Below, in pieces: positions 7,679 to 52,778 of a DNA stretch of 64,000 nt. Each line of letters starts with the position of its first letter. Positions within the stretch are counted from its first letter, which is position 1. A program made the position numbers and the translations under genes. Source of the stretch: Labilibaculum filiforme (GTDB lineage: Bacteria; Bacteroidota; Bacteroidia; Bacteroidales; Marinifilaceae). The stretch spans positions 248,001 to 312,000 of the forward strand of contig NZ_MVDD01000003.1 in assembly GCF_002843315.1 (NCBI RefSeq), written 5' to 3'. Under the pieces are notes generated by a model. It had not been told where the DNA came from, did not search any database, and saw nothing but the letters and a program-made list of their open reading frames with translations.

Positions 7679-8470
7679 TTATAGAATAAAACTTGAGAAA
7701 TCGCCTTCTAAAAATGTTCGTAACTCATTTGGGGTAATCCTCACCTTAATATTTCCGCCCATTACATAGGAAATATTTCCAGTTTCTTCGGAAACCGTAA
7801 TCACATGAGAATCGGTTGCTTGAGTCATGCCAATAGCTGCTCGATGCCTTAATCCCAAACTACCTGGAATATTTGTATCATCGGTAACCGGTAAAATACA
7901 GCGAGCTGCAAGTATCCTATTATTTGCCCAAATTAGAGCTCCATCGTGAAGAGGCGAATTTTTAAAAAATATTGTTTCGATCAGATTCTTAGAAACTCTT
8001 GCTTTTAAAATTTGTCCTGTATCGGCATATGTTTGTAAATCTGTATTTTTTGCAACTACAATTAAAGCTCCTGTTTTTGTTTTTGCCATGTGCTCGCACG
8101 CGCTAACAATTGATCGAATTTCAATATCGGGAATCCCTCTTTCGTCTAGAGCAAACCAATTATTCAAATTAAATTTTTGGCTCATATTATATCTAGTTCC
8201 AAGTAGTAGAAGAAATCTTCTAATTTCCTGCTGAAATACAATAATTAAGGCAATCACTCCAACCCCTATAAATTGTCCGAGAATACTACTTAATAACTCC
8301 ATATTAAGAGCTCGAACCAACAACCACATAAGGTAAAAAAGAGATAATCCAACAAATATATTGATGGCAACTGTTCCCTTAATTAGCATGTAAACCTGAT
8401 AAAGCAAAAAGGCAACAAGTAATATATCCAGAATATCAAAAAGTCCAAGTGTTATAAATGCGGTGGTCAT
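7679..8470 (-). CDS. cdaA: Diadenylate cyclase (c-di-AMP synthase), CdaA type
   Basis: 263 aa. Three hydrophobic segments in the first 90 residues (LFDILDILLVAFLLYQVYML, INIFVGLSLFYLMWLLVRAL, LGQFIGVGVIALIIVF) anchor the protein in the inner membrane. The DisA_N catalytic domain follows, with both signature motifs visible: DGALIWANNRILAARCILPV and GLRHRAAIGM. It makes the second messenger c-di-AMP from two ATP, generally linked to potassium/osmotic and envelope homeostasis. It follows folP by 52 bp on the same strand, an arrangement common in Bacteroidota. No YbbR-type partner (CdaR) is next to it. Confidence 0.95.
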   Translation of the reverse strand: MTTAFITLGLFDILDILLVAFLLYQVYMLIKGTVAINIFVGLSLFYLMWLLVRALNMELLSSILGQFIGVGVIALIIVFQQEIRRFLLLLGTRYNMSQKFNLNNWFALDERGIPDIEIRSIVSACEHMAKTKTGALIVVAKNTDLQTYADTGQILKARVSKNLIETIFFKNSPLHDGALIWANNRILAARCILPVTDDTNIPGSLGLRHRAAIGMTQATDSHVITVSEETGNISYVMGGNIKVRITPNELRTFLEGDFSSFIL

Positions 8471-8522
8471 TTTTTATAATTAAATTCAGTATGCTAACAA
8501 AATTACAATTTTATTGGACAAA

Positions 8523-51346: not shown

Positions 51347-51616
51347 ATGAATATATTACTAGAACAAGGTTGGAGCGAAATAGACAGTAGATTGGTGAAA
51401 AACTATGTTCTTCCCAATTTTATCGAAGCTGTAAATTTTATTAATTTAGTGGCCCTGGAGGCTGAAAATATAAATCACCACCCAGATATAAAACTGTACA
51501 ACTATAAAAATGTACGGCTTATTTTAACCACAAAATCAAAAGGTAAAATCACCAAAAAAGACATTCTGCTTGCAAAAAGCATCGATAATGTGTTTGAATC
51601 GATGAAAGTATTTTAA
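51347..51616 (+). CDS. phhB: Pterin-4a-carbinolamine dehydratase
   Basis: 89 aa. WSEIDSRLVKNYVLPNFIEAVNFINLVALEAENINHHPDIKLYNYKNVRLILTT is the complete family domain, with the His-His-Pro-Asp cluster of the active site. It recycles 4a-hydroxy-tetrahydrobiopterin, the cofactor of phenylalanine hydroxylase, and in many bacteria has a second role in folate or molybdopterin metabolism. The gene ends within the end of convergent pheA (4-bp overlap of stops), a suggestive neighbour for phenylalanine metabolism although no hydroxylase gene is visible here. Confidence 0.93.
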   Translation: MNILLEQGWSEIDSRLVKNYVLPNFIEAVNFINLVALEAENINHHPDIKLYNYKNVRLILTTKSKGKITKKDILLAKSIDNVFESMKVF

Positions 51617-52452
51617 GTGATTACAATACCAGTATTATAAGTTCCCAAAATCTGCATTCCTCTCGTGTAAGTTTCTATATTGTCGAGAGCATCGCGAAAT
51701 TGTCGAGGGCCCTGAAACTCCAAATCGACATGAAAAAAGTATTGCCAATTGACACCAGGAATTGGCAATGATTGAATTTTTGAGAGGTTGATATTCTGCT
51801 TGGCGAAACATTCTAAAATATACGATAAGCTTCCTGGTTTATGACTCGTACTAAAATATAGCGAGGCCTTATTATATCCACCATTAGGAACTAAATCCTT
51901 CTTTCTTTTTAAAATAAAAAATCGGGTTTGATTGTCTTTAATGCTTTCAATTTCTTCTGCAAGAATTTCTAAGCCATACAATTCGGCAGGATAATCGCCG
52001 GCAATAGCCCCTACTCCCTTCAACTGATTATCTCTTACATTTTTTGCACTAAGAGCGGTATCCTCCATTTCTACTAATTTAATATGGGGATAATTCCGAA
52101 AGAAATCGCGACACTGATGAATTGCCATTGGATGAGAATGAACCTCTTTTAAATCTTCGATTTTTTGCCCCGGCAAAGCCATTAAATTTTGCTTAATTCT
52201 TAAGAATATTTCTCCCTCGATTACCAGCCCCGAATCCTGAAGGAGTCCGTAATTTTGCAGGATACTGCCCGCTATTGAGTTTTCAATCGCCATAATACCG
52301 CCATCGCTAACCGATTCATCTTGAATTAAGCCTACCAATGTGGCGAAATTGCCAGCAGGAATAATCTCAACATCTTCCCCATAATAGGCATTTGCAGCCA
52401 AATGGTGAAAGCATCCTTCCACTCCTTGAATTACAATTTTTCTTTTGTTCAT
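51613..52452 (-). CDS. pheA: Prephenate dehydratase
   Basis: 279 aa, without a fused chorismate mutase. Catalytic domain: VIQGVEGCFHHLAANAYYG, GGIMAIENSIAGSILQNYGLL, SHPMAIHQCRDFF, VGAIAGDYPAELYGL, and DNQTRFFILKRK with the catalytic Thr in TRF. The C-terminal ACT domain (KPGSLSYILECFAKQNINLSKIQSLPIPG) should bind phenylalanine for feedback inhibition. It makes phenylpyruvate, the last committed step to phenylalanine. The 300-bp leader upstream contains two Phe-rich leader peptides and two terminators, so expression is probably controlled by attenuation as well. Confidence 0.97.
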   Translation of the reverse strand: MNKRKIVIQGVEGCFHHLAANAYYGEDVEIIPAGNFATLVGLIQDESVSDGGIMAIENSIAGSILQNYGLLQDSGLVIEGEIFLRIKQNLMALPGQKIEDLKEVHSHPMAIHQCRDFFRNYPHIKLVEMEDTALSAKNVRDNQLKGVGAIAGDYPAELYGLEILAEEIESIKDNQTRFFILKRKKDLVPNGGYNKASLYFSTSHKPGSLSYILECFAKQNINLSKIQSLPIPGVNWQYFFHVDLEFQGPRQFRDALDNIETYTRGMQILGTYNTGIVIT

Positions 52453-52474
52453 GCTTATAGTTAGATTTTAAATC

Positions 52475-52506
52475 AAAAAAAAAGCCCGATTAAATAAGGA
52501 CTCTTT
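52475..52506 (-). terminator. pheA attenuator 2 (leader terminator)
   Basis: Minus strand AAAGAGTCC-N10-GGGCTTTTT forms nine pairs (two G-U) and runs into nine T residues, ending 23 bp before the pheA start codon. TAAGGA at the end of leader peptide 2 can pair with TCCTTA in this hairpin and so prevent it. Confidence 0.65.
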
Positions 52507-52523
52507 ATGAATAGTTTACGATT

Positions 52524-52595
52524 TTATTTCCTTAGAATCCTGCACTTCTCGTGGTTAAAGAAGAAAAAAATAAAAAACCAAATCGTAAAAAACAC
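52524..52595 (-). CDS. Second Phe-rich leader peptide of pheA
   Basis: 23 codons from a GTG at 52595 to TAA at 52524-52526. The peptide begins MFFTIWFFIFFFFN and contains eight Phe in its first thirteen residues, then ends HEKCRILRK. There is no ATG, so GTG initiation is inferred. The last codons contain TAAGGA, complementary to the 5' side of the terminator at 52475-52506. TCTTTA within the Phe codons can pair with the same TAAGGA (one G-U), giving the 1:2 versus 2:3 alternatives of classical attenuation. Confidence 0.6.
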   Translation of the reverse strand: MFFTIWFFIFFFFNHEKCRILRK

Positions 52596-52610
52596 TGTTC
52601 TTATATAGTC

Positions 52611-52637
52611 AAAAAAAAAGAGCCCTTATAGAGGCTC
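52611..52637 (-). terminator. pheA attenuator 1 (leader terminator)
   Basis: Minus strand GAGCC-N8-GGCTC (one extra T-G pair is possible inside) followed by nine T residues. CCTCTA inside its 5' half (52629-52634) is the exact complement of TAGAGG at the stop codon of leader peptide 1 (52667-52672), so an antiterminator can form. Confidence 0.6.
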
Positions 52638-52669
52638 ATCATCATTTAATAGTACGTGAAAGTCCTCCT

Positions 52670-52723
52670 CTAACAACAGCTGCTAAAAAAGAAAAATCGC
52701 TCGATATGCATATTATTATCCAT
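52670..52723 (-). CDS. pheL: First Phe-rich leader peptide of pheA (pheL-like)
   Basis: 17 aa, MDNNMHIERFFFFSSCC, with four consecutive Phe codons (TTT TTC TTT TTT) followed eight codons after the first by the stop TAG. An alternative in-frame ATG lies at 52711. It begins about 17 bases after the predicted transcription start and precedes a terminator with an alternative antiterminator pairing. This is the layout of the enteric pheL leader, though the peptide sequence itself is different. Confidence 0.7.
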   Translation of the reverse strand: MDNNMHIERFFFFSSCC

Positions 52724-52744
52724 AGTTTTTGTACTAATTCTTTT

Positions 52745-52778
52745 CAAAGGTAAAAAAATATTCCATACTACCTTACAA
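52745..52778 (-). promoter_or_regulatory. Promoter of the pheA leader transcript
   Basis: On the minus strand TTG (52776-52778) and TACCTTTG (52745-52752) match the Bacteroidota -33 and TAnnTTTG -7 elements with a 23-bp spacer, at the long end of the accepted range. The predicted start is near 52739, just before leader peptide 1. The rest of the gap to 52964 has no gene or clear structure. Confidence 0.6.

Follow-up and report, generated by a model that had tools for sequence, protein, structure and literature searches.

Two Phe-codon leader units in series ahead of pheA in Labilibaculum filiforme, probable tandem attenuators of a type spread through Bacteroidia

Attenuation through a leader peptide is textbook knowledge in proteobacteria and actinobacteria. 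In the enteric pheL-pheA system (RF01859, Phe_leader), a Phe-rich leader peptide, an antiterminator and a terminator precede pheA. Serial gates that respond to the same signal are known in another form, from the Bacillus pyr operon with its three PyrR attenuators and from tandem T-boxes, and these are read by a protein or by tRNA with no leader peptide. Lopatovskaya is said to have surveyed amino acid attenuation comparatively in 2010, perhaps with Bacteroidetes included, and a study of ermB reportedly deals with two leader peptides. For Flavobacterium psychrophilum, the relevant section of PMC9723704 presents strong indications that amino acid operons are attenuated through leader peptides, and the 5′ element it describes at pheA is shared with other Flavobacteriaceae and has no Rfam hit. 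Leader-like sORFs of Bacteroides thetaiotaomicron are described in the corresponding part of PMC7366714.

The DNA analyzed here, the window, is a stretch of 64,000 nt from Labilibaculum filiforme (assembly GCF_002843315.1, contig NZ_MVDD01000003.1, positions 248,001 to 312,000 of the forward strand), and coordinates are those of the window. On its minus strand pheA, encoding prephenate dehydratase, occupies 51613–52452 (ATG at 52452; PF00800, PDT, 3.9e-51). It is a lone gene with a convergent neighbor, a pterin-4a-carbinolamine dehydratase gene on the plus strand (51347–51616), which closes the pheA unit. The same convergent neighbor is present in 16 of 16 loci (L001–L016) of what is here called the clade, namely the pheA locus of the window and 15 others with 78–92% PheA identity. 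Phe hydroxylase (PF00351), sought in the window genome to account for the neighboring pterin dehydratase, gave no match there. Pfam calls no ACT domain in PheA, though by eye residues ~195–250 are ACT-like; the ESRP motif of ACT domains reads QSLP in the window protein, and Phe may accordingly be a poor feedback inhibitor of the enzyme. A scan of viral contigs revealed no pheA relatives in them. To be called a candidate leader unit, a short ORF had to hold four or more Phe, Tyr or Trp in 7 codons and to have an intrinsic terminator no more than 140 nt further on. The window, scanned in 212 tiles, yielded four candidates, two of which are the pheA pair; units were called in 4 of 522 shuffled pheA upstream sequences and in 8 of 2557 tiles from the flanks of 80 loci (L101–L180).

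Upstream of pheA the initial annotation had listed, in order on the minus strand, a promoter, a leader peptide, a hairpin with T9, a second, GTG-started peptide, a second hairpin with T9 and then the gene, and the corresponding sequence elements are all present. The promoter motif (52745–52778) has TTG at 52778–52776, then 23 nt, and at 52752–52745 TACCTTTG, a −7 box of the Bacteroidota type. All 15 clade loci counted have TAnnTTTG starting 28–32 nt ahead of leader 1, with a TTG 17–25 nt upstream of it in just seven of the 15. A sigma-70 scan is little informative for this phylum. A peptide overlapping the −7 box, MEYFFTFEKN, was a spurious pick of early versions of the detector. Leader 1 (52670–52723, minus strand) starts with ATG at 52723, encodes MDNNMHIERFFFFSSCC (Phe4) and ends with TAG at 52672–52670. 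Overlapping this stop codon is the 5′ arm of the putative antiterminator 1, TAGAGG (52667–52672), with its partner CCTCTA at 52634–52629. Terminator 1 (52611–52637, minus strand) is the hairpin GAGCCTCTATAAGGGCTC (52637–52620) followed by T9; the segment folds at −9.3 kcal/mol and the hairpin is detected by a simple terminator scan. The complementary words to which the annotation had drawn attention are there, and the helix they would form, though credible, is a weak one (p 0.145 in comparison with shuffles, in the window genome alone). Relatives in the genus, which includes Labilibaculum euxinus (L101), retain AGAGG/CCTCT; in the genus loci L002, L004, L005, L008 and L101 the helix is 5 bp only (p 0.26–0.44).

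Leader 2 (52524–52595, minus strand) is read from GTG at 52595 as (V)FFTIWFFIFFFFNHEKCRILRK to the stop codon TAA at 52526–52524, and Phe accounts for eight of its first 13 residues, as initially counted. The GTG exists, but in the 13 other aligned genomes leader 2 starts with an ATG that is ATA here (52604–52602), three codons 5′ of the GTG. A GTG start is therefore a derived guess, and the start codon of leader 2 in the window genome is uncertain; all its Phe codons are retained. The 5′ arm of antiterminator 2, AGGATTCT (52534–52541), is within the coding tail of leader 2 and its partner, AGAGTCCT, is at 52504–52497, giving 8 bp (p 0.08 against shuffles, taken alone), so that by themselves neither of the two antiterminator helices in the window is significant. 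The six-base complement first noticed in this unit, TAAGGA/TCCTTA, is present but not conserved: what relatives keep is CAGGATTCT:AGAGTCCTG, to which AGGATTCT:AGAGTCCT corresponds in the window. Terminator 2 (52475–52506, minus strand), AAAGAGTCCTTATTTAATCGGGCTTTTT, has its hairpin at 52506–52479 and T9 at 52483–52475, and the segment folds at −7.6 kcal/mol. The stem in relatives is of the AGAGTCC type, and the window hairpin retains seven of nine aligned pairs, two of the seven being G-U. The simple terminator scan missed this hairpin, whose loop is above the limit of 8 set in the scan. With its ATG gone and a terminator weaker than that of relatives, unit 2 looks weakened in the window genome.

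From the parts, their conservation, the mutual exclusion of the folds, the match between codons and genes and the lack of a promoter motif between the units, all obtained by computation, we consider it very likely that pheA is controlled by two ribosome-mediated transcription attenuators in series, served by one promoter and both sensing charged tRNA-Phe. The computable parts support the pheL-like reading proposed at the outset. Each unit has a short ORF with a run of Phe codons, an intrinsic terminator between leader and gene (the weaker one in unit 2) and, in silico, an antiterminator that excludes the terminator, being free on stalling and masked when the ribosome is at the stop codon. When Phe is plentiful, the ribosome would reach the leader stop codon and cover the 5′ arm of the antiterminator, and with that arm masked the terminator hairpin would form and RNA polymerase would leave. 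When Phe is short, the ribosome would stall at the Phe run, the antiterminator would form and polymerase would pass. Translation of the leaders, termination and the response to Phe are presumed here, as is the multiplication of the two gates: as polymerase would have to pass both, the basal leak should equal the two single leaks multiplied together, and the pair would widen the range without a second signal.

For the folding, 227 units were taken as RNA up to the 3′ arm of the terminator with the ribosome placed at one of two sites, the run or the stop codon (the folding and helix tests exclude L003, L006 and L160). Mean pairing of the 5′ arm of the terminator was 0.76 with the ribosome stalled and 0.21 with it at the stop codon. 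In controls with the segment from run to terminator shuffled, the values were 0.49 and 0.36, and because the controls differ too the contrast is partly geometric. It went in the predicted direction by more than 0.2 in 219 of the 227 units and in the opposite direction in one; both units of the window behaved as predicted (0.92 stalled and 0.20 at the stop codon for unit 1, 0.77 and 0.29 for unit 2). Compared with shuffles, the best single helix reached p 0.05 for 79 of 106 single units; among tandem units it did so for 23 of 43 in first and 28 of 43 in second position, and among aro units for 5 of 6. These figures sum to 135 of 198, and the count over all units is only 136 of 201, even after unit selection; it is not the case that 54 of 198 helices beat p 0.005. 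Run and terminator are mostly 40–68 nt apart, a narrow range (L160 left out). In tandem loci the tail past the run is mostly 2–4 codons in first units and mostly 6–14 in second units. A short tail in unit 1 is combined with a long one in unit 2 in 40 of 45 loci, the order being opposite in L045, L060 and L069 and the lengths equal in L033 and L044. The asymmetry is only a tendency, by which the antiterminator arm tends to be at or after the stop codon in unit 1 and inside the ORF in unit 2.

All 15 clade loci that are readable upstream, the window's among them, carry both units (the upstream sequence of L007 ends just short of terminator 2 and is excluded), and the Phe runs, whose comparison in relatives had been suggested, are conserved. 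Compensatory change was also to be looked for, and one case was found. In L009 and L010 a C of the shared arm has become T and a G of the 3′ arm of terminator 2 has become A, turning a C-G pair into U-A, and L010 has in addition A for G in the unit-2 antiterminator arm, so that in L010 the matched changes preserve both unit-2 helices. Over the cells of 13 distinct rows, standard pairs make up 97.4% in terminator 2 and 96.6% in antiterminator 2, compared with 19–62% and 30–54% in the respective slid controls. Two-sided change is confined to just one pair in each unit-2 helix, a count equaled by 141 of 500 shuffles for the terminator and 83 of 500 for the antiterminator, and support from covariation is thin. 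These counts are for unit 2 only, as MAFFT misplaces the loop of unit 1. The spacers between the units in L002–L006 and L101 are ~90 to 210 nt longer than in the window and hold repeated pieces and palindromes, for instance CCCGAAAGCTTTCGGG in L003.

The state of unit 2 bears on whether both gates operate in this particular genome. Only unit 1 might work here, with unit 2 decaying since the loss of its ATG and its hairpin serving as a weak constitutive terminator or as nothing. This genome is the only one of the 14 aligned with ATA for ATG, two pairs of the terminator 2 stem are lost besides the two that have become G-U, and the hairpin escaped the scan. Yet a GTG is available three codons on with every Phe codon downstream of it, the frame, the run, the 8-bp antiterminator and T9 are all retained, and unit 2 folds as predicted in both ribosome positions. 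We regard decay of unit 2 as unlikely and think it more probable that both units work as attenuators.

That the two are in series is suggested by the lack of a second promoter motif. As far as DNA sequence goes, two leader ORFs with no −7 box between them lie upstream of pheA. TAnnTTTG is within 90 nt of the first leader in 126 of 178 cases as against 94 of 890 shuffles, and none of 44 tandem loci has a motif of this one type in the stretch from terminator 1 to leader 2 (L003 and L160 are excluded from the −7 box counts). Its absence there, together with its presence ahead of leader 1 throughout the clade, speaks against the two units being alternatives transcribed from two promoters instead of serial gates, which the longer spacers of L002–L006 might accommodate but which we judge quite improbable.

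The two serial attenuators appear to read the same signal. Both units are Phe-based in 14 of 14 clade tandem loci, with one Tyr in unit 2 of L009 and L010, two Tyr ahead of the run in unit 1 of L015, and Trp in unit 2 of seven of the 14, L009 and L010 counted in. Of the tandem loci outside the clade, 30 of 30 have both amino acids, Phe and Tyr, in each unit, the downstream genes having been read for 22 of them (this comparison was made without L003, L006 and L160). The same codon set in both units points to gain or suppression of leak and not to an AND gate for two signals.

Leader codon content follows the gene content of the operon. Outside the clade pheA is in most cases the first gene of an operon that also holds aspC, tyrA and/or aroF, and its leaders have Phe and Tyr. 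Tyr makes up no more than 20% of Phe plus Tyr in 18 of 18 lone pheA loci versus 3 of 96 aro-operon loci, the low-Tyr exceptions among the latter being L045, L139 and L175. Fifteen of the 18 lone loci are of the window's clade; the rest are L032 (10 Phe, 0 Tyr), L035 (6 and 1) and L052 (4 and 1). A tree yields three independent contrasts. They go the way expected in almost all of 200 random pairings, a few pairings holding one tie, and with three contrasts p 0.05 is out of reach (L003, L007, L026, L037 and L056 were excluded here, and the values for L006 and L160 were assigned manually). A further lineage, L086 and L097, agrees, with 6 Phe and 0 Tyr each. There ilvD and a gene for a TPP enzyme come after pheA, with no aspC, tyrA or aroF within the 5 kb read; the names ilvD/ilvB come from Pfam for L097 and were assigned by eye for L086.

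The codon match also bears on the idea that the U-rich stretches act directly, by UTP-sensing pausing as in pyrBI, with the peptides incidental. Phe runs are indeed T runs, and pyrBI-type attenuation employs a U-rich leader according to the pertinent part of PMC3641672. Tyr codons, however, enter the run where aspC, tyrA or aroF is downstream and are absent or nearly so elsewhere, indels in leader 1 among relatives are of 3 nt, and the distance from run to terminator is kept narrow, so that a direct role of this sort is very improbable. That a riboswitch or T-box, the standard alternatives at amino acid genes, sets the terminators instead of a leader peptide is hardly credible, as units of ~110–135 nt are accounted for by the peptides and no Rfam family, T-box (RF00230) included, reached the gathering threshold in any of the sequences searched, namely the window, 20 pheA loci and five aro, his and trp loci.

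Serial attenuators that sense charged tRNA-Phe remain the preferred reading, and how far such units extend can be gauged from pheA loci with at least 400 nt of upstream sequence. Among 174 of these, 150 have a unit: one in 104, two in 46; 24 have none. L003 and L101, which are one contig, are both counted; in L006 the first unit was mis-picked, the true one being visible on inspection, and the first "unit" of L160 is a TTG artefact. Outside the 174 are L007, L063, L145, L173, L174 and L180, with less than 330 nt upstream. In L026, one of the 24 unit-less loci, a leader-like peptide is present and no terminator was called; the unit-less L041, L042, L046, L059 and L142 also have no aro gene directly downstream, and the two units of L096 appear only with a 900-nt window. 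An order-level draw, with 68 of 73 places filled and 67 readable, gave 43 single, 10 double and 14 without a unit. In a phylum draw, 32 members of the class gave 27 single, one double and four without, and outside class Bacteroidia one of 38 had a unit (L261), the 38 being taken from 95 matching genomes and 28 of them being the best-scoring. The initial annotation had thought such units unusual in Bacteroidota. For a single unit the reverse is true in class Bacteroidia, where 28 of 32 members carry a unit and one is the norm, while the serial pair is, as it expected, less common, though recurrent. Tandem pairs are found in Chitinophaga (L102 and L103, with one unit in L104, L105 and L113), Hymenobacter (L115, L117 and L129, with one unit in L107) and Phaeodactylibacter (L119). 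Mapped on a quick tree of PheA from 131 loci, the tandem state changes 13 times or more, and so it recurs or is often lost.

The aro operon of the window genome, separate from pheA, has its own pair. On another contig Pfam identifies aspC-tyrA-aroF/CM-aroB-aroA, preceded by tandem Phe/Tyr/Trp leaders, MKQLIITMKTFSTYFYYFWYFYYPQR and MTNLGLAFRYYYFYFWYNNDRAGCLIPNFK, each with a terminator (L190, G000:C16:4000-20000, at 8215–8515 of the reverse complement). The clade yielded 18 close tyrA loci; 15 of them were read, and all 15 show a tandem pair of this type. From the same region of L190 trpE heads the opposite way, and upstream of it on the plus strand is MIGMINKYWWWHSCELSKPEQR, a single leader for trp whose terminator is strong. 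A his leader, MIFTAIHHHHHYTYQSVS, with a terminator, is upstream of hisG (L263) and is also single, both having been counted by eye within the stretches read. With his and trp single and aro and pheA tandem, the tandem arrangement is here a Phe/aromatic trait among the attenuators examined. A candidate structured RNA of Bacteroidetes, Bacteroid-trp RNA (RF01692), is listed in PMC2864571, and its name suggests a role at trp genes; it has no threshold match in the trp or aro loci of the window genome. We think it rather probable that a pheA attenuator is class-wide in Bacteroidia, that in many lineages it has become two same-signal gates in series, and that its codons are retuned when pheA leaves or joins an aromatic operon, the split in the present case having given a Phe-only pair at pheA and a Phe/Tyr/Trp pair at aspC-tyrA-aroF-aroB-aroA.

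Compared with enteric pheL-pheA, the gene, the Phe-rich leader peptide, the antiterminator and the terminator are alike, but here there are two serial units, the host is one of the Bacteroidota and no sequence relation is seen; unit 2 matches RF01859 weakly (E 0.044, 25.9 bits, with a family threshold of 55 bits). PyrR attenuators and tandem T-boxes resemble the pheA pair as same-signal gates in series, and differ from it in that the pair has leader peptides. The F. psychrophilum element concerns the same gene in the same phylum, and the section on pheA in PMC9723704 describes no tandem pair, class-wide range or match of codons to operons. In Salmonella mgtCBR, two short ORFs in one leader are each part of an attenuator, sensing ATP-linked and proline signals, with structures unlike intrinsic terminators, as set out in the relevant part of PMC3641672; unlike these, the pheA units read the same amino acid or amino acids and end in terminators of the intrinsic type. 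In the open-licence literature searched we found no serial leader attenuators for the same amino acid and no class-wide pheA attenuator in Bacteroidia. If the reading is right, doubling in series would be an evolved way of multiplying the range of attenuation with no regulator protein, and a widespread and little described control of aromatic amino acid synthesis would operate in an important class of bacteria from gut, soil and sea. Leader codons that follow operon content are natural experiments, by which mechanism and evolution are testable in many species, and same-signal serial gates would allow it to be measured whether attenuators multiply. The pheA arrangement is real and conserved, and in its anatomy it is two classical attenuators placed in series.
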